Shown here one piece after another: positions 8,627 through 21,675 of a stretch of DNA of 33,408 bases. Location of the stretch: assembly GCA_902587325.1 (NCBI GenBank), contig CACIKV010000014.1:1-33408 (forward strand), given 5' to 3'. The first letter of the stretch is position 1; each line of letters starts with the position of its first letter. This DNA comes from an uncultured Bacteroidota bacterium (GTDB lineage: Bacteria; Bacteroidota; Bacteroidia; Flavobacteriales; Flavobacteriaceae). Made by a program: the position numbers and the translations under genes. Below the pieces are notes generated by a model. That model had not been told where the DNA came from. It did not search any database and was given only the letters and a program-made list of their open reading frames with translations.

Positions 8627-8634
8627 TATCTTTG
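8627..8634 (+). promoter_or_regulatory. TAnnTTTG -7 box of ybeY
   Basis: TATCTTTG ending 9 nt before the ybeY ATG at 8644. The TTG at 8632-8634 that would open the longest reading frame is the end of this box, so it is not the start codon. Confidence 0.6.
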
Positions 8635-8643
8635 CCAAGAATA

Positions 8644-9066
8644 ATGTGTATTGAATTTATATCCAATATTGATTTTGTTTTGTCTAAGAAGAAAAAACAC
8701 ATAAACTGGTTAATGAACGTAGCAAACTTAGAGGGATATAAGATTAAAAACGTTGTTTATGTTTTTTTAAGTGATGATGAGCTTAAGTCTCTTAATGTCA
8801 AGTATTTAAAGCATGATTATTATACAGACGTTTTATCTTTTAATGATTCAATTGGCAAGGAAATTAAAGGTGATATAGCTATATCTATTCAACGAGTAAA
8901 GGAAAATGCTAAACTGTATTCACCATCTTTCGATGAAGAGCTTAGGAGAGTTATGGTACACGGCTTACTTCATTTTATGAATTACAAAGATTCAACAAAA
9001 GAAGAAATTGCTCTTATTAGAGCTAAAGAAGAAAAAATGTTAGGTTTGTTCCACGTGAAACAATAA
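8644..9066 (+). CDS. ybeY: rRNA maturation endoribonuclease YbeY
   Basis: Metal-dependent RNase family involved in 16S rRNA 3'-end maturation and ribosome quality control. The 140-aa protein has the family strand YYTDVLSFN, then GDIAIS, and the metal-binding motif VHGLLHFMNYKDSTKEE. The canonical third histidine (HGxLHxxGYDH) is replaced by KD, a form I recognise from Bacteroidota YbeY. ATG 8644 is chosen over TTG 8632 because the latter lies in the promoter box. The last codons (FHVKQ) are read from a parS-like site, and the stop is 2 bases before mnmG, so the two genes form an operon. Confidence 0.92.
   Translation: MCIEFISNIDFVLSKKKKHINWLMNVANLEGYKIKNVVYVFLSDDELKSLNVKYLKHDYYTDVLSFNDSIGKEIKGDIAISIQRVKENAKLYSPSFDEELRRVMVHGLLHFMNYKDSTKEEIALIRAKEEKMLGLFHVKQ
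9047..9062. promoter_or_regulatory. parS-like ParB-binding site, copy 1
   Basis: TGTTCCACGTGAAACA, a 16-bp near-palindrome identical to the bacterial chromosomal parS consensus TGTTNCACGTGAAACA. It lies inside the last codons of ybeY, just before mnmG. A second identical copy is at 10957. ParB dimers load at such sites and spread along DNA to drive origin segregation. Confidence 0.85.
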
Positions 9067-9068
9067 GT

Positions 9069-10940
9069 ATGTTCCAAAATAAATACGATGTTATTGTAGT
9101 AGGTGCAGGTCATGCCGGTAGTGAAGCTGCGGCTGCGGCAGCCAATATGGGAAGCGCTACTCTTTTAATAACAATGAATCTCCAAAATATAGCGCAAATG
9201 TCTTGTAATCCAGCCATGGGCGGAATTGCAAAAGGACAAATAATTAAAGAAATTGATGCTCTAGGCGGGTACAGTGGTCTCGTTACAGACTATAGTGCTA
9301 TACAGTTTAAAATGCTAAACAAATCAAAAGGACCAGCGGTTTGGAGCCCTCGAGCTCAATCTGATAGAATGATGTTCTCTACGAAATGGAGAGAAATGTT
9401 AGAATCGACACCAAACCTTGACTTTTATCAAGATTCTGTAGTCAGTATGTTAGTTGAAAATTCTACTGTTGTAGGTGTCGTAACCCAACTGGGCATTAAA
9501 ATATATTCTAAATCGGTCATTTTAACCAGTGGAACTTTTCTAAATGGTTTAATACATGTTGGTGAAAAGCAGTTTGGAGGAGGAAGGGCTGGCGAAAAGG
9601 CATCAATTGGGGTTACGGAAGATCTTGTAAGTTTTGGTTTTGTTTCAGGCAGAATGAAGACTGGGACTCCACCACGGGTTGATGGAAGATCACTTAACTA
9701 CAATAAAATGGAGGAACATCCGGGGGATATTAATCCTGGTAAGTTTTCATATTTACCCTCCTCTCCTAAACTAACAAAACAGCGAAGTTGTTATGTTACT
9801 TATACAAATTTAAAAACGCATGATTTATTAAGAGAAGGTTTTGATAGGTCTCCAATGTTTAATGGAAGGATAAAGTCTGTTGGGCCGAGATATTGTCCAT
9901 CCGTTGAAGACAAGATAAACCGATTCTCAGAAAAGGATAGGCACCAGATTTTTGTAGAGCCTGAAGGTTGGAATACTGTTGAAGTTTATGTCAATGGGTT
10001 TTCTACATCACTTCCTGAAGAAGTACAGTTTAAAGCACTAAAGTCTGTTCAGGGCTTTGAAGATGTAAAGTTTTTTAGACCTGGCTATGCAATTGAATAT
10101 GATTACTTTCCTCCTACACAGCTTAAACATTCTTTAGAAACAAAACCAATAGAAAATCTCTTTTTTGCCGGACAAATTAACGGTACTACTGGATATGAAG
10201 AAGCTGCTGCTCAAGGTTTAATGGCCGGTATAAACGCTCATTTAAAAATCAATAATAAGCCAGAGTTTATATTAAAAAGAAATCAAGCTTATATTGGTGT
10301 ATTAATAGATGACTTAATAACGAAAGGAACGGATGAACCCTATAGGATGTTTACATCCAGAGCTGAATTTAGAATGTTACTTCGCCAAGACAATGCAGAC
10401 ATTAGGCTATCTGAACTTTCCTACTCTATAGGTCTCGCAACAAAAGATCGGTACACATTAGTTAAAAATAAGCTTAAAAAAACACAAGAATTAATTCACT
10501 TTATTGAAAACTTAAGTGTTTCCCCAAAGGAAATCAACCCTATTTTAGAAAACAAAAATTCAAAGACGATTGATCAGTCCATGAAATTAAAGAAACTTTA
10601 CAGTAGGCCAAACATTGTTTTTGAAGATGTTGTAAAAATTAATTCTCTTAAGGAATTTGTTGATAATAATAATATAAATGAAGAGGTCATTGAGCAAGCT
10701 GAAATACAAATTAAATATTCTGGCTATATTCAAAAAGAAAGTGCCAACGCTGATAAGTTAAACAACCTTGAATCAATTAAAATTCCAGAAATGTTTGACT
10801 ATAGCGCTCTTAAGTCAATGTCATCAGAAGCTAAGTCAAAACTTGAGGAAATAAGACCTAAAACTCTTTCACAAGCATCGAGAATTAGCGGGGTTTCGCC
10901 CGCAGATATAAGCGCGATGCTCGTTTTTATGGGTAGATAG
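9069..10940 (+). CDS. mnmG: tRNA uridine-5-carboxymethylaminomethyl modification enzyme MnmG (GidA)
   Basis: FAD-dependent subunit that with MnmE makes cmnm5U at the wobble position (U34) of certain tRNAs. The 623-aa protein opens with the dinucleotide-binding GAGHAGSEAA (about residues 12-21). It continues with SCNPAMGGIAKGQI near 45, the FAD/substrate motif KTGTPPRVDGRS near 197, GTTGYEEAAAQGLMAG near 370 and SRAEFRMLLRQDNADIRL near 429, then the helical C-terminal domain. The length is normal. It sits 2 bases after ybeY and 2 bases before a methyltransferase gene, and is bracketed by two parS-like sites. No ParAB, MnmE or RsmG gene is in the window. Confidence 0.98.
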   Translation: MFQNKYDVIVVGAGHAGSEAAAAAANMGSATLLITMNLQNIAQMSCNPAMGGIAKGQIIKEIDALGGYSGLVTDYSAIQFKMLNKSKGPAVWSPRAQSDRMMFSTKWREMLESTPNLDFYQDSVVSMLVENSTVVGVVTQLGIKIYSKSVILTSGTFLNGLIHVGEKQFGGGRAGEKASIGVTEDLVSFGFVSGRMKTGTPPRVDGRSLNYNKMEEHPGDINPGKFSYLPSSPKLTKQRSCYVTYTNLKTHDLLREGFDRSPMFNGRIKSVGPRYCPSVEDKINRFSEKDRHQIFVEPEGWNTVEVYVNGFSTSLPEEVQFKALKSVQGFEDVKFFRPGYAIEYDYFPPTQLKHSLETKPIENLFFAGQINGTTGYEEAAAQGLMAGINAHLKINNKPEFILKRNQAYIGVLIDDLITKGTDEPYRMFTSRAEFRMLLRQDNADIRLSELSYSIGLATKDRYTLVKNKLKKTQELIHFIENLSVSPKEINPILENKNSKTIDQSMKLKKLYSRPNIVFEDVVKINSLKEFVDNNNINEEVIEQAEIQIKYSGYIQKESANADKLNNLESIKIPEMFDYSALKSMSSEAKSKLEEIRPKTLSQASRISGVSPADISAMLVFMGR

Positions 10941-10942
10941 CT

Positions 10943-11794
10943 ATGTGTAAACCTAATGTTCCACGTGAAACAAAACAAATTGAAACTAAAGATTACTTGG
11001 TATCAAATGAACACTTTATTTTAAAGGAATTTGAGAAAGGACTTTTAAAAACAACTCCTAATATATCAGATTCTGAAATTTATAAATATTATAGTTCGGA
11101 TGACTATCTCTCACACAACAGAACGGTTTCTTTTCTCTCTTTGATATATACTTTTGCTTCAAAATATATGCTAAAAAGAAAGGCTAATCTAATCTCGAAA
11201 TATATTGATCAAGGGTCTTTTTTTCTTGATTTTGGGTGTGGTATTGGTGAGTTGGTTTTGAAAATGAAATCTAGAGGTTTCGTGTCCCATGGTGTTGAAA
11301 ATAATTTAAATGCATATAACGCTTGTTTGAAAAAGAACATAAGTGTTTTTAAAGATCTCAAAAGCTTAAAATCAAAATTTGATTTAATTTCCTGTTGGCA
11401 TTCTTTGGAACATTTATCAGATTTTGCCGCAACATTGTCTAAGTTTAATAAGTCAATAAACAATAACGGGTATTTAATAGTTGCTGTTCCAAATCATGAA
11501 TCTTTTGATTCAAAATATTATGGTAAATTTTGGGCAGGGTATGATGTTCCAAGGCACAGATTTCATTTTAGTAAAGATGCACTAATACGGAATGTAGAAG
11601 ACTCTAACTTTAAGCTGGTTGATTCTTCACCAATGTTCTTGGACGCTTTTTATATTTCAATATTGTCAGAAAAATATAAAAAGAATTTTTTCAGTTTTTT
11701 TAAAGGCGTTTTAATTGGGGCTGTTTCCACTTTCGCCTATTTAATAACAAAAAACGCAAGTTCACATTACTTTGTGTTTAAAAAGTCAAAATAA
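10943..11794 (+). CDS. Class I SAM-dependent methyltransferase
   Basis: Protein of 283 aa with a Rossmann-type methyltransferase fold. Motif I, FLDFGCGIGE, lies at about 95-104 and binds S-adenosylmethionine. It is followed by an acidic loop (HGVEN), then FDLISCWHSLEHL and the post-motif NNGYLIVAVPNHESFDS. The C-terminal third has a short hydrophobic segment (about residues 248-270). This arrangement resembles the methyltransferase 11/23 families; the substrate is unknown. It is read with ybeY and mnmG as a tight three-gene unit. Its first codons run through the second parS-like site (NVPRETK), in a different reading phase from the one used by ybeY. Confidence 0.85.
   Translation: MCKPNVPRETKQIETKDYLVSNEHFILKEFEKGLLKTTPNISDSEIYKYYSSDDYLSHNRTVSFLSLIYTFASKYMLKRKANLISKYIDQGSFFLDFGCGIGELVLKMKSRGFVSHGVENNLNAYNACLKKNISVFKDLKSLKSKFDLISCWHSLEHLSDFAATLSKFNKSINNNGYLIVAVPNHESFDSKYYGKFWAGYDVPRHRFHFSKDALIRNVEDSNFKLVDSSPMFLDAFYISILSEKYKKNFFSFFKGVLIGAVSTFAYLITKNASSHYFVFKKSK
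10957..10972. promoter_or_regulatory. parS-like ParB-binding site, copy 2
   Basis: Second perfect copy of TGTTCCACGTGAAACA, 1,910 bp from the first and in the same orientation. It lies in the first codons of the methyltransferase gene. The two copies are translated in different phases (FHVKQ and NVPRET), so the identity is kept at the DNA level. Confidence 0.85.
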
Positions 11795-16270: not shown

Positions 16271-17752
16271 ATGTTAAAAAGATTTTTTGCAAAAGTTTTT
16301 GCTTTTATAATTGTAAGAAAAATTGAAAACACTTATTCAAAGTCATTTAAAATTCAAGAAAAAATTCTTTTTTCACTTTTAAAAAAAGCTTCTAATACTC
16401 AATTTGGAATAGATCATAATTTCAATAAAATAGACAACTATGAGTTTTTCAAAAAAAACGTTCCTGTCAGAGATTATGAAGAGTTTTCAACTTACATTTC
16501 CAAAATCAAAAAAGGTAGCAGAAATATTCTTTGGCCCGGTAAGCCTCTTTATTTTGCAAAAACTTCTGGGACAACAAGCGGTTTAAAATATATTCCAATA
16601 ACTAAAGAGTCAATGCCTAATCATATTAATTCATCAAGAAATGCTTTTTTATTTTATATAAATAAAACCGGAAAAACAAATATTTTAGATGGTAAAGCTA
16701 TTTTTATTCAAGGCTCACCAATTCTGGAAGATTTAAATGGTATAAGGGTTGGAAGACTGTCAGGAATTGTTGCACATTATGTTCCCAGATATTTAAATAA
16801 TAATAAAATGCCATCTTGGGAGACTAATTGTATAATTGACTGGGAAGAAAAAATAGAAAAAATTTGTGAAGAGACTTTAAATGAAAATATGACTGTTATA
16901 GGGGGAATTCCATCTTGGGTAAAAATGTATTTTGAGAAACTTATTAAAAAGTCAAATAAAAAAACATTAGCTGAAATTTTTAAAAATCTATCATTGTATG
17001 TTTTTGGGGGAGTAAATTATGAACCATATCAAAAAACATTCAATAAGCTAATTGGAAAAAAAATTAATACAATTGAATTCTATCCCTCATCAGAAGGCTT
17101 TTTTGCTTATCAAAATGATCAAAATGACAAGTCTTTACTACTTCAATATGACTCTGGAATTTACTACGAGTTTGTAAAACTTGAAAATTTTGAAAATGAA
17201 AATTCAAAAAGATATAATCTTTCGCAAGTTCAAATAGGAATAAACTATGTTTTAATAGTTTCTACAAATGCAGGGTTGTGGGCTTACAATACTGGTGATA
17301 CAGTTACTTTCACATCACTTGATCCTCCAAAAATTTTAGTTACAGGAAGATATAAACATTTTATTTCTGCTTTTGGAGAGCATGTTATCGTTACAGAAGT
17401 TGAGCAAAGTTTAGCCGAAACATCCAAATATTTTAATGAACTAATTGCTGAATTTACTGTAGCTCCTAAATTAAACAATGATGGAAAATTACCTTGTCAT
17501 GAGTGGTTTATAGAGTTTAAATCAGATATAAAAATATTAGATCAATTTGAAAAATATCTAAACAAAGAACTGTGTAAAAGAAATGTTTACTATAAAGATT
17601 TGATAGAGGGAAAAATTTTAAAAGAATTGGAAATTGTTTTAGTAAAAAAAGGAGGTTTTAACAGACACATGAAAAGCATCGGGAGACTTGGAGAACAAAA
17701 TAAAGTTCCAAGGCTTTCTAATAACAGAGATTTTATTAAAGGATTAAAATAA
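16271..17752 (+). CDS. GH3-family acyl-adenylating enzyme
   Basis: Protein of 493 aa in the GH3 family, named for plant enzymes that adenylate a carboxylic acid hormone and join it to an amino acid. The ATP/AMP-binding motif FAKTSGTTSGLKYIPIT lies at about 95-111 and YPSSEGFFAYQND near 274, with a C-terminal region containing RYKHFISAFGEHVIVTEVE that resembles the adenylate-forming superfamily. Bacterial members are common in Bacteroidota, but their acid and acceptor substrates are not established. The gene follows the M23 peptidase gene with a 1-base gap and has no promoter box of its own, so both should be on one mRNA. Confidence 0.82.
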   Translation: MLKRFFAKVFAFIIVRKIENTYSKSFKIQEKILFSLLKKASNTQFGIDHNFNKIDNYEFFKKNVPVRDYEEFSTYISKIKKGSRNILWPGKPLYFAKTSGTTSGLKYIPITKESMPNHINSSRNAFLFYINKTGKTNILDGKAIFIQGSPILEDLNGIRVGRLSGIVAHYVPRYLNNNKMPSWETNCIIDWEEKIEKICEETLNENMTVIGGIPSWVKMYFEKLIKKSNKKTLAEIFKNLSLYVFGGVNYEPYQKTFNKLIGKKINTIEFYPSSEGFFAYQNDQNDKSLLLQYDSGIYYEFVKLENFENENSKRYNLSQVQIGINYVLIVSTNAGLWAYNTGDTVTFTSLDPPKILVTGRYKHFISAFGEHVIVTEVEQSLAETSKYFNELIAEFTVAPKLNNDGKLPCHEWFIEFKSDIKILDQFEKYLNKELCKRNVYYKDLIEGKILKELEIVLVKKGGFNRHMKSIGRLGEQNKVPRLSNNRDFIKGLK

Positions 17753-17757
17753 ATAGA

Positions 17758-19221
17758 TTAACCTTCTTTGATAATTATATTTTTATTTAATATATAATTC
17801 ATTTGTCTTGAGTCTTTTTTTGATTTTTCAATTAAAAATAAATTTGTATTGAAAAGGATCAAAAAGCGTTTATTTAGAGAAGAAGTGATTCTATTTTTTC
17901 TTTTAATGGCATAGTCTTTTGTTTTAGATTTTTCAATAAATAGAGACATTACCTGTGCATTTGAAACAATCTTTTCTTTTAGAAAGTATTTAATAAACAA
18001 TAACTCTTCTTTTGTTAATCCAATAGACCCTTTAGAATGAATTATTTCTTTTTTTGTAAGTACATATTTTCGATTGTTTAAGCTAAAGAAAATCCAAAGG
18101 AAAATAATTATAGATATAAGTAGAATAAACCCACAAATTAAAAAAATGTAAAAATTATCTGTACTTCTGTATAAGTATTCATCAATTATACCTTCTCTTT
18201 TTTCTAATCCTGTTAAATTAAAATAGGCAATAGAAATCTTTCCAGTTGAAAAATTTTTAACTACTCTGGCTAATTCATTATTTTTAATTAAAGACTTTCC
18301 TGTGCTTTTGTATAATAACAAATCATTAGGAATAGTTTTGAAGCTATTATTTTCTGGGTCAATTAAATAAAGATTTGGATTATTAGCAATACTTAATAGT
18401 AGATTTTTCCCAAGTCGAAGGCTTTTGTTACTGAGATTAATTGGAATATCGTTTAAAATAGGATTAAGAACTCCTTTTTTTTCCCAATTAAAAGAAATTT
18501 TTTTATCAATTTCACCGAGATCGTTAAATTTTGGTAAACTTAAAACATACAGGTTTTTTTCTTTGAAAGATTTTTGAGTATTAGATGTTCTTTTTAAAAA
18601 GCCAAAAGCATACAATTTATCATTTTTAATTAAAAAATTTCCTTGGTCAATTCCCTCAGGAATTTGACCAGTCGTATTTACATAATCCCATTCTCCTGAG
18701 CTAAAATTAAATTTTGTTAATAGTGATTTTGTTTCCCAAAATCCATATCCACCAAGCAGATAAAGATCTTTTCCATGAGAAAAAAAATAACCTGAATATT
18801 GATTTCTGTGCGCAAAAGACCTATCAATTCTAGTTATAGAATTATCACTTTCACTAAATTTAAATAAAATACCGCCGCCTGGGTATAATAGATAGCTATT
18901 CGAACCCATTTGAACTTGTGAAAGAGCTTGAAGCTCAACATTAATTTCTTTTGGGATAGATTTTGAATACTTTCTGTATGCAAATTGATTTTTTGAAAAA
19001 GGACCAGTTAAAAAACCTTCTCTTAGTAGAATATGAAAATAGTTTTTGCTGCTCTCAATAAATAGATAATCTTCATTGTCAAGTAATTCTGAAATATTAT
19101 CACCATTGATAATTGAGTCATAAGTAACATTTTCTATTAATAAATTATTATTAATTGTTATTGCAGGCTCTTGACTATTAATTATGCAAATGAAAAATAA
19201 AAAGGATATTTTTTCGATCAT
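17758..19221 (-). CDS. Kelch-like periplasmic sensor with one membrane segment and putative cytoplasmic winged helix (paralogue A)
   Basis: Unrecognised protein of 487 aa. It has an N-terminal signal-peptide-like stretch (about 1-17), then a beta-rich extracytoplasmic region with kelch-like repeats (about 135-210; HRNQ at 138-141 and GGYGFW at 157-162). One strongly hydrophobic helix follows (about 357-381). The 106-residue C-terminal domain contains LTKEELLFIKYFL, SNAQVMSLF and a basic helix DYAIKRKNRITSSLNKRF, ending in strands; this helix-helix-strand order suggests a winged-helix DNA-binding domain. It is a divergent paralogue of the protein at 20269-21675. It overlaps the end of the upstream wecA-like gene by 4 bases, so it is translated from that transcript. 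Inference: a membrane one-component regulator; galactose-oxidase activity is unlikely. Confidence 0.6.
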   Translation of the reverse strand: MIEKISFLFFICIINSQEPAITINNNLLIENVTYDSIINGDNISELLDNEDYLFIESSKNYFHILLREGFLTGPFSKNQFAYRKYSKSIPKEINVELQALSQVQMGSNSYLLYPGGGILFKFSESDNSITRIDRSFAHRNQYSGYFFSHGKDLYLLGGYGFWETKSLLTKFNFSSGEWDYVNTTGQIPEGIDQGNFLIKNDKLYAFGFLKRTSNTQKSFKEKNLYVLSLPKFNDLGEIDKKISFNWEKKGVLNPILNDIPINLSNKSLRLGKNLLLSIANNPNLYLIDPENNSFKTIPNDLLLYKSTGKSLIKNNELARVVKNFSTGKISIAYFNLTGLEKREGIIDEYLYRSTDNFYIFLICGFILLISIIIFLWIFFSLNNRKYVLTKKEIIHSKGSIGLTKEELLFIKYFLKEKIVSNAQVMSLFIEKSKTKDYAIKRKNRITSSLNKRFLILFNTNLFLIEKSKKDSRQMNYILNKNIIIKEG

Positions 19222-20252
19222 TTAAAAATTAAATAAAATAGTATTAATAGATATATCAATATAAAAAATATAACAAGACTCAATGAAAAATACATAGATA
19301 GAAAGAACCCAATTGTTAATATTGAAATTGAAGTTAATAGTATTATAAGAGTTGCCTGCCAATGATTAAGACCTTTTTTGTCAATCAATCTATGGTGTAA
19401 GTGAACTCTGTCCGCTACAAATGGAGATTGTTTTTTATATGCTCTAATTGCAAAGGCACGTAAAGTATCGACTAATGGATAAATTATCATTAAAACTACT
19501 AATAAGGGTCTTGAAATAATATCATCCGTAATAATAAAACTTCTGTCATCTAGAATGTAGAAAATATAAAAAGCAATTACTGAGCCTAATAATAATGAGC
19601 CAGTATCTCCCAAAAATACTTTTTTATAAGGATTCATATTATACAATAAAAAGCCTATGAGAGCACCTACTACGGATGGTACTACAAGCTCCATTTCTCT
19701 GGACGAAACAGATAAAATTGCTCCAATCACTATAAAAAACTTTATACAAAGTAATGCCGCAAGACCATCAATTCCATCTATTAAGTTTAGTGAGTTTACT
19801 ATAACAACAAAAACAAAAATTGTGACCAAACTACCAACCAAATATGGAATTTCATAAATTCCAAAAATGCCATGAAAATTATTTATATAAACCTCACTTT
19901 GTAATAAAACAACACCCGCAAATACTTGGACATAAAATTTTTCTCTGTACTTTATTGAAAAAAGATCATCTGCAACACCAATTAAGGCAACGAAGCAAAA
20001 TGCTAAAAGAGCATATAGATTAACGTTAATAAGTCCAAGTGCCTTCCCAACACCATAACATATACAAAATGTTAAAAATAATGCAAGCCCACCTGATCTT
20101 GTAGCTTTTTCTCTGTGAGAAGACCTGGCAGTCACTGGATCATACATTTTATTTAGATTAAAAGCAGTATTTAAATAACCATTTAAAAAACCTGATAGGC
20201 CAGCAGCTAAAAATAAAAACAAAAAATAATAAACTAATAATTCGACTTCCAT
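19218..20252 (-). CDS. WecA/TagO-family undecaprenyl-phosphate sugar-1-phosphate transferase
   Basis: Polytopic membrane enzyme of 344 aa that starts glycan assembly by moving a sugar-1-phosphate (commonly GlcNAc-1-P) from UDP-sugar to undecaprenyl phosphate. Family motifs are intact: the metal-binding ADD at 94-96, NSLNLIDGIDG at 153-163, FLGDTGS at 213-219 and the cytoplasmic loop DRVHLHHRL at 281-289 that separates WecA/TagO types from MraY. About ten hydrophobic helices. It is the first gene of a two-gene unit with kelch-like paralogue A and is divergent from paralogue B, with only 16 bases between start codons, so their promoters must lie within each other's coding sequence or in that gap. 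No exact TAnnTTTG box was found there. Confidence 0.9.
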   Translation of the reverse strand: MEVELLVYYFLFLFLAAGLSGFLNGYLNTAFNLNKMYDPVTARSSHREKATRSGGLALFLTFCICYGVGKALGLINVNLYALLAFCFVALIGVADDLFSIKYREKFYVQVFAGVVLLQSEVYINNFHGIFGIYEIPYLVGSLVTIFVFVVIVNSLNLIDGIDGLAALLCIKFFIVIGAILSVSSREMELVVPSVVGALIGFLLYNMNPYKKVFLGDTGSLLLGSVIAFYIFYILDDRSFIITDDIISRPLLVVLMIIYPLVDTLRAFAIRAYKKQSPFVADRVHLHHRLIDKKGLNHWQATLIILLTSISILTIGFFLSMYFSLSLVIFFILIYLLILFYLIFK

Positions 20253-20268
20253 TTACTAACTTGGCATT

Positions 20269-21675
20269 GTGAAAAAAATACTTTCATTTTTGTTTTTTTT
20301 GATATTTAATTTTATTTCAGGACAAATAAATTTACCTGTTTTCGATAGTGTCACAAACTTCTTGTTTGCAAAATCAGAGAATGATAAAATTAATTTGATA
20401 ACTAAAAATGGCATATTTGAGCTAAATAATCAATCTTGGGATTATTATAAATTTCAGACTAAATCTTTTAAAAAAGAGATTGGTAAAATTGGAGTTGAAT
20501 TTTCACACAAAGAGTATTTATCGATTCAAAATTCAAAGGATCAATTTATAGTTTCAATTGGTGGCGGACCAGTTTTTAAAAGAGTCAAAAATGAATATAT
20601 AAGAATAGACAATACCCATCTCCACCGAAATCAAGTTTGGGGATCTTTTTTTACATATAATGATAAAATCCATATTTACGGTGGTTATGGTTTTTGGTCA
20701 TTTAAAGATTATATTACTTTTTTTGATTCAAATATTAAACAATGGGATATAGTTTATAATGAAAGTGAATATATACCAAAAGGAAGGGGTAAAGCTATTA
20801 GTTTTGTCTCAAATGACTCTAAGCTTTTTATAATTGGTGGCACTACAATTTCTAAAAACGCCTTATATAATAAAGATAATGATGATGTTTTTTACTTTGA
20901 TTTGATTGAAAAAAAATTTGTGCACATTGGCAAACTTGCTACGCCCCTAGTCTCAAAACACACTCTATTTAAATTACCCTCTATTAATGACAATGCATTT
21001 CTGATGGAAAAAGACTCAATTGTTAAGTTTGATTTCAATAGAATGAACTTCACATCGTATAAAAAAAATAATTTTAATATAAATATTGATAATAAATTTC
21101 CAACTTATATAATTGATGAAAACCTTTATTTTATGTCTTTAGAAAACGAAAAAAACGCATTAGAATCTATAAATCTTAATTCTTTGGACTCATCTGACTT
21201 TATATCATCTTCATTTCCTATTATTGAACAAAAAAGAGATAGATCTTTTGAGGTAATATTAATTTCTGTACTTGGTTTTCTTTTCTTTTGGATTATTTTA
21301 AAATTATTTTTATACAAAGATCATTTAAAGGGCCTTCTGCTGTTTGATGACAAAATAATATTTTTTAAAAATAAATCAATTAAGGCAACATCAACGGAAA
21401 TAAATTTTATTTCAGACCTTTCTAATAATAACTTTATCTCTGCACAACAAATAAATAAAATAATATCCTCAAAAAAATATAGCAAGTCTCACTTAACATC
21501 TATAAGAAATAATTTCATTGATAAAATTAATTCTAAGCTTTATCATCTGACTGGCGAAAAACAATCGATTATTGAAACTAAAAACCCATATGACAATAGA
21601 ATAAAAGTTTACAAAACAAATATCACTTACTTTAAGCCTAAAACTAGCTTTATAAAATTTTTATTTAAGTTCTAG
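20269..21675 (+). CDS. Kelch-like periplasmic sensor with one membrane segment and putative cytoplasmic winged helix (paralogue B)
   Basis: Unrecognised protein of 468 aa, paralogue of the 17758-19221 product. It begins with a clear signal peptide (KKILSFLFFLIFNFISG). The kelch-like region (about 113-192) shares HRNQ..G.FF and GGYGFW with paralogue A. A membrane helix lies at about 326-347, and the last 121 residues contain TSTEINFISDL, SAQQINKII and the basic helix KSHLTSIRNNFIDKINSKL, a likely helix-turn-helix with wing. The start is GTG at 20269, the only codon that gives the full signal peptide. A near-promoter box (TAACTTGG, one mismatch) lies 4 nt upstream. Function unknown. Membrane-bound regulation of the neighbouring polysaccharide gene is the working guess. 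Confidence 0.6.
   Translation: MKKILSFLFFLIFNFISGQINLPVFDSVTNFLFAKSENDKINLITKNGIFELNNQSWDYYKFQTKSFKKEIGKIGVEFSHKEYLSIQNSKDQFIVSIGGGPVFKRVKNEYIRIDNTHLHRNQVWGSFFTYNDKIHIYGGYGFWSFKDYITFFDSNIKQWDIVYNESEYIPKGRGKAISFVSNDSKLFIIGGTTISKNALYNKDNDDVFYFDLIEKKFVHIGKLATPLVSKHTLFKLPSINDNAFLMEKDSIVKFDFNRMNFTSYKKNNFNINIDNKFPTYIIDENLYFMSLENEKNALESINLNSLDSSDFISSSFPIIEQKRDRSFEVILISVLGFLFFWIILKLFLYKDHLKGLLLFDDKIIFFKNKSIKATSTEINFISDLSNNNFISAQQINKIISSKKYSKSHLTSIRNNFIDKINSKLYHLTGEKQSIIETKNPYDNRIKVYKTNITYFKPKTSFIKFLFKF

Follow-up and report, generated by a model that had tools for sequence, protein, structure and literature searches.

The window analyzed here, contig CACIKV010000014.1 (33,408 nucleotides, positions 1 to 33,408; GenBank assembly GCA_902587325.1), comes from an uncultured Bacteroidota bacterium of the family Flavobacteriaceae and contains two exact copies of a 16-bp word, TGTTCCACGTGAAACA, one on each side of the gene mnmG. 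We consider these two words, with a probability of roughly 0.93, to be chromosomal parS sites, which make up the DNA component of a ParABS system for segregation; from their sequence, they are predicted to be bound by ParB. Very probably, they form part of a conserved parS-mnmG-parS layout that lies apart from parAB and dnaA. In the order, mnmG is usually flanked by a pair of sites, and in our sample of the phylum a position next to mnmG is widespread (order and phylum, here Flavobacteriales and Bacteroidota, were named from mnmG matches).

Two identical words on either side of mnmG

An earlier note on this DNA, made from the sequence alone, had placed the word at 9047-9062 and 10957-10972 and had seen no further CACGTG in the window. 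Both exact copies were found there, and they account for the only occurrences of CACGTG in the window. The sites and the genes around them are as follows:

8632..9066, + strand: ybeY; the Pfam YbeY domain spans residues 26-137 of 144, and the 3' end holds site 1
9047..9062, + strand: predicted parS site 1, TGTTCCACGTGAAACA, exact match; inside the final ybeY codons, 6 bases 5' of the mnmG start
9069..10940, + strand: mnmG (gidA), Pfam GIDA (1.9e-162); bracketed by sites 1 and 2
10943..11794, + strand: SAM-dependent methyltransferase, Pfam Methyltransf_23; its N-terminal extension holds site 2
10957..10972, + strand: predicted parS site 2, TGTTCCACGTGAAACA, exact match; in the N-terminal codons of the methyltransferase open reading frame (ORF), 16 bases past the mnmG stop

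Site 1 reads L-F-H-V-K-Q-stop in ybeY, the stop codon of which occupies 9064-9066. Given the span of the YbeY domain, the tail encoded by the site falls outside it. Site 2 starts 17 positions past the last base of the mnmG stop codon and 14 bases past the ATG at 10943, and reads N-V-P-R-E-T. The reading phases of the two sites differ, so that repetition at the protein level does not explain them, as the earlier note had argued. Its judgment that two copies are very unlikely to arise by chance was likewise borne out: a first-order Markov model predicts 4.5e-6 copies, with a probability of about 1e-11 for two or more, and 0 of 100 shuffles reached the four matches observed at three mismatches or fewer. 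The note had further equated the word with the ParB-binding parS consensus, and TGTTCCACGTGAAACA indeed differs by a single base from the degenerate chromosomal parS consensus, TGTTTCACGTGAAACA, given in the accessible part of PMC10197239. An Rfam search for an RNA at the sites gave a single tRNA only, located elsewhere.

The window is contig C14 of a 51-contig draft genome of 1.475 Mb, which is 84.8% complete. Throughout this draft, the only exact copies of the word are the two at mnmG, 1.9 kb apart; the next best word has two mismatches and lies on contig C2, within an nqrB-like gene (name read from the ORF).

Conservation of the sites and of their position

A set of 60 genomes of the order was searched, many of them incomplete and one being the genome of the window itself. 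Sites with at most one mismatch are present in 42 of them. An mnmG gene was found in 50 genomes, 42 of which carry a site no more than 500 bp from one of its ends: upstream in 39, downstream in 29, and at both ends in 26. None of the 10 genomes without a found mnmG has any site. The genome-wide search proposed in the earlier note found no scatter: the draft has its two exact copies close together, and of the 75 sites in the 60 genomes, 71 are no farther than 500 bp from an end of mnmG, with none inside the gene. Within the genus, both sites occur in all 14 members with mnmG (own genome included), and the nine without it have no site at all.

The same picture emerged from 80 named loci, fetched by MnmG similarity alone as the best 80 of at least 591; these lean to close relatives, and some are cut by contig ends. 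At one mismatch or fewer, a site lies within 500 bp in 75 of them, and on both sides in 65. Their 190 sites are distributed as 172 in the two flanks, 1 inside mnmG, and 17 elsewhere, and a reversed-pattern control gave 0. Among the one-mismatch variants, 50 of 60 alter the first or last base, pointing to a constrained 14-bp core, GTTYCACGTGRAAC; directly outside the word, conservation drops to an A/T bias. When the exact core was used, 77 of the 80 named loci carried a site (65 on both sides), and all 30 of the best relative loci (the best 30 of 50 mnmG matches) carried it on both sides. The exact core was found inside mnmG in none of these 30 or 80 loci, and once in 30 loci from the deeper genomes described below.

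Some of the named loci hold more than a pair: clusters of 4-10 parS-like words were seen upstream of mnmG in L061, L036, L043, L053, and L060. L061 has ten site-like words upstream, including four copies of TGTTCCACATGGAACA spaced 116-118 bp apart. L036 (JASGCW010000006.1) is titled Limnohabitans sp., a betaproteobacterium, and has an mnmG region like that of Flavobacteriaceae loci; it is probably a misbinned contig.

For greater depth, 30 genomes (16 at the level of the class, 14 at that of the phylum) were picked from 118 so as to spread over families. With at most one mismatch, 23 have a site near mnmG, where 42 of their 67 sites lie; the exact core is present near mnmG in 12 of the 16 class-level and 13 of the 14 phylum-level genomes. 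Bilateral sites were found in one class-level and five phylum-level genomes. Three genomes (G062, G131, and G061) had none counted at one mismatch, yet core sites adjoin their mnmG, and in another three (G123, G096, and G072) sites occur only away from mnmG, with the R and G of ParB discussed below retained.

The genes around mnmG vary considerably in this deeper set. A survey of 20 flanking ORFs from 12 loci, which took the longest ORF per flank and perhaps not the immediate neighbor, found mnmE upstream in four loci and rsmG downstream in three of those. The others included SoxY with a polymerase-B-like protein, SpoIIE-like with BadF-like, and ABC with Big_5; at L278, neither flanking ORF had any match. 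As the flanking genes differ while the sites persist, it is mnmG that the sites accompany, not a particular order of genes. The link between the putative centromere and this housekeeping gene is tight and survives when the neighboring genes change.

The relation of the sites to coding sequence was followed within the genus, for which 13 congeners were fetched; the contig of one (G020) ends at the upstream site, leaving 12 readable there. In all 12, the upstream site has the same place and phase as part of the ybeY tail, and congener upstream sites end 6 or 8 bases ahead of the mnmG start codon. The downstream site begins 1-17 positions past the mnmG stop in all 13, and its phase varies or it is non-coding; a clear case of its inclusion in the methyltransferase ORF is seen only in the window and in congeners G003 and G022, which all have the V-P-R-E-T extension. 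For the named loci, the 104 upstream core sites divide into 39 within ybeY, 63 in the gap, and 2 unjudged, and the 68 downstream ones into 38 outside the next gene, 7 inside it, 6 ambiguous, and 17 unjudged. The observation of the earlier note that both sites are inside coding sequence is true of the window, but such a position is neither rare nor required among relatives. These counts give no support to the idea that coding-embedded sites are a peculiarity of this compact genus.

The codons used at the sites are uncommon as well. For F-H-V-K-Q at site 1, TTC makes up 12% of the Phe codons of the window and GTG 5% of its Val codons (joint 0.0013), while for V-P-R-E-T at site 2, CGT makes up 2.8% of the Arg codons (joint 0.0027). 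Since the word is kept despite changes of phase and peptide, also where it is non-coding, and is written in uncommon codons, selection acts on the DNA.

A third conserved site, 4.5-5.5 kb downstream, was considered and rejected: the word TCTTCCACGTGAAACA found there in L039, L047, L050, L052, and L066 is coding sequence for a lytic-transglycosylase-like protein (name read from sequence). These copies (L039:17422, L047:17306, L050:17311, L052:16998, and L066:16405) look like parS, and are fixed by a conserved L-P-R-E-T-A-G-Y motif, making them a decoy for parS scans.

ParB and the position of the origin

The earlier note had suggested finding parB and comparing its DNA-binding domain. A parA-parB operon was found on contig C1, with parB at 57982-58845 (G000:C1) and, directly upstream, a gene for a ParA of 253 amino acids with an AAA_31 domain; dnaA lies on the same contig, 54 kb beyond parB. 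The ParB carries ParB_N and HTH_ParB domains and matches solved ParB and Noc chains, the best being 4umk (E 7.9e-44). It also contains the motifs GERRLRA and ENIQRRDL, which we take to serve CTP binding. At the positions equated with 173, 179, 184, and 201, it has R, Y, K, and G; these positions were placed by way of an alignment with Noc and the numbering of PMC7383237. According to the accessible part of that paper, R173 and G201 mark a parS-type ParB, and Noc has Q and R there, so that the ParB of this genome has the residues of the parS type.

Among 43 aligned ParB loci, own included (30 of the 55 genomes with ParB matches, and 13 more), R is found in 43 and G in 42. The ParB of G150 is the only one with A for G at the position equated with 201, and the G150 genome has no site at one mismatch or fewer. 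No altered palindrome was seen in G150 in the stretches around mnmG and parB (L333, ParB of G150; L264, L340, L341). With a changed ParB residue and no site at that threshold, G150 offers a natural case for a test of co-evolution.

To locate origins, skew was calculated as GC3 (third-codon-position) skew in sampled 20-kb stretches, and in contiguous 10-kb bins for the complete chromosomes of G116 and Polaribacter sp. BM10 (G060). In both of these, GC3 skew flips from negative to positive around the sites, with one discordant stretch each, away from the flip. The cumulative skew minimum of G116 lies at 2.54-2.55 Mb and its core sites start at 2.5666 Mb, 17-27 kb off; that of G060 lies at 2.45-2.46 Mb, about 10 kb from words at 2.4483 and 2.4502 Mb. 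In G036, the skew changes between 0.80 and 0.92 Mb, and the site lies at 0.932. Skew within the window itself is ambiguous, and no DnaA-box cluster (three TTWTNCACA within 600 bp) was found in the window or in the two origin regions of G116 and G060.

The earlier note had remarked that parAB, dnaA, and rsmG are missing from the locus. They are, and for parAB and dnaA this is the usual state: five chromosomes of the order (G036, G049, G053, G060, and G116) have dnaA 0.75-1.42 Mb and parB 0.80-1.29 Mb away from their sites, and in G038 the distance is about 1.2 Mb. The distance of dnaA varies among the deeper genomes: 28 kb to a site in G089, about 15 kb to mnmG in G062, and about 1 Mb in G065. 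Where dnaA is a poor marker, as in the five chromosomes, the sites may thus help to find the centromere from sequence, and probably the origin too.

The window contains several further genes. A GH3-family protein (Pfam GH3, 3.5e-39), in a small bacterial genome, is encoded at 16271-17752 (+). Two similar-looking ORFs lie on opposite strands at 17758-19221 (-) and 20269-21675 (+), the first with a weak Kelch match; the ORF between them, at 19218-20252, resembles an MraY/WecA-type transferase (read from sequence).

Competing explanations and comparison with known systems

If the words are parS sites, ParB from the unlinked parAB operon would nucleate at each of them as a CTP-loaded clamp, and known ParABS biology suggests that these clamps would slide outwards across mnmG and its neighbors. 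One partition complex would then form near the replication origin, and ParA would move it to the daughter cells.

Several observations weigh against this interpretation. In eight of the 50 genomes with mnmG (G024, G041, G044, G046, G047, G050, G051, and G059), no site lies beside it at one mismatch or fewer, and six of these eight have a ParB match. One of the eight speaks in favor: G051, at 0.3 Mb and rated 100% complete, has kept mnmG and has neither a ParB match nor a site. G007 and G025 (82% and 80% complete), on the other hand, have sites and no ParB match, and the match of G013 is weak. ScpA, which belongs to a usual partner of ParB-parS, was found by profile PF02616 in 0 of the 60 order genomes, while 9 of 14 named control genomes matched (SMC, ScpB, and MksB were not searched). 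The origin data are uneven too: in G060, the first word has a changed centre and the second only outer changes, leaving one intact core of two; the skew change of G053, between 2.52 and 2.90 Mb (site 2.764), is weak and shows up only in the GC3 mean; the sampled stretches of G049 gave no clear change; and the distant G089 has its change at 2.47-2.70 Mb, offset from the sites by 0.17-0.4 Mb, besides one stretch at 1.35 Mb that disagrees. The suggestion of the earlier note that the locus is origin-proximal is therefore supported in relatives, closely by G116 and G060, more coarsely by G036, and weakly by G053, but not by the offset in G089. For the window's own genome, we infer that the origin lies near the sites.

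Could the words instead be operators? A regulator, perhaps ParB itself, would then bind on either side of mnmG chiefly to control its transcription, with segregation secondary or absent. Such a role would fit the closeness of the sites to mnmG, with 6 or 8 bases between the upstream site and the start codon in congeners, and their presence beside it where other neighbors differ. Against it, no promoter role for mnmG is evident for the downstream site, L061 has ten site-like words upstream, the word is a known parS consensus in a genome with a parS-type ParB, and the sites lie near skew-inferred origins. We therefore regard operators as improbable.

Still less probable, to the point of being hardly tenable, is conservation at the protein level, with selection on the peptides F-H-V-K-Q and V-P-R-E-T. 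The single ybeY phase of the upstream site throughout the 12 readable congeners and the 39 upstream core sites inside ybeY speak for it, and the L-P-R-E-T-A-G-Y motif of five relatives demonstrates that a coding decoy can be real. Against this stand the non-coding core sites (63 among the 104 upstream ones, 38 among the 68 downstream ones), the varying downstream phase within the genus, and the uncommon codons. For chance or a mobile repeat, no supporting point was found, and the probability of two copies, the lack of any other exact copy in the genome, and a position kept across the phylum sample make this just as hard to credit.

Beyond the interpretation of the words as parS sites, we can offer only a tentative extension, which we think more doubtful than likely. 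In the phylum, parS and mnmG may be an anciently linked unit, the centromere moving together with mnmG and holding it at the origin. The bracket might then have a function of its own, for instance if ParB clamps loaded at both ends enclosed mnmG, so that its transcription and the building of the partition complex affected each other, all this in a lineage whose chromosome segregates without SMC-ScpAB.

As parS, the sites are ordinary in kind; the bracket around mnmG, apart from parAB and dnaA, is a layout that we have not found described. Among the titles and abstracts of the literature matches listed, there was no report of parS at mnmG in this phylum, which is weak evidence of absence from print.

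The sites can be set beside three known systems. The Noc-binding sites treated in the accessible part of PMC7383237 are similar in being palindromes bound by a related helix-turn-helix protein family, and the K at position 184 of our ParB is shared with Noc; in contrast, this ParB has R and G where Noc has Q and R, and the word has the bases of parS.

The classical mnmE-mnmG-rsmG cluster lies near oriC together with parAB. The arrangement found here is similar in having mnmG near an inferred origin with parS close by, and the four deep loci with mnmE upstream, three of them with rsmG downstream, of an mnmG that has parS words at its flanks resemble it further. Unlike that cluster, the spot in the window is without mnmE, rsmG, parAB, or dnaA, and mnmG keeps its sites regardless.

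With chromosomal parS in general, the sites share a 16-bp word that differs by one base, a low copy number, a parS-type ParB together with ParA, and, in some relatives, a position near skew-inferred origins. They differ in flanking mnmG on both sides, in lying 0.75-1.42 Mb from parB and dnaA in five chromosomes, and in that ScpA was not found. Loading of SMC-ScpAB is another known task of ParB-parS, and is probably not in play here because ScpA was not found. In the accessible part of PMC10197239, two Bacteroidetes are reported to be without known condensins, and Hi-C in two gut Bacteroidetes raises the question of ParB-parS without SMC-ScpAB. The order studied here may provide a setting in which ParB-parS acts in this way.

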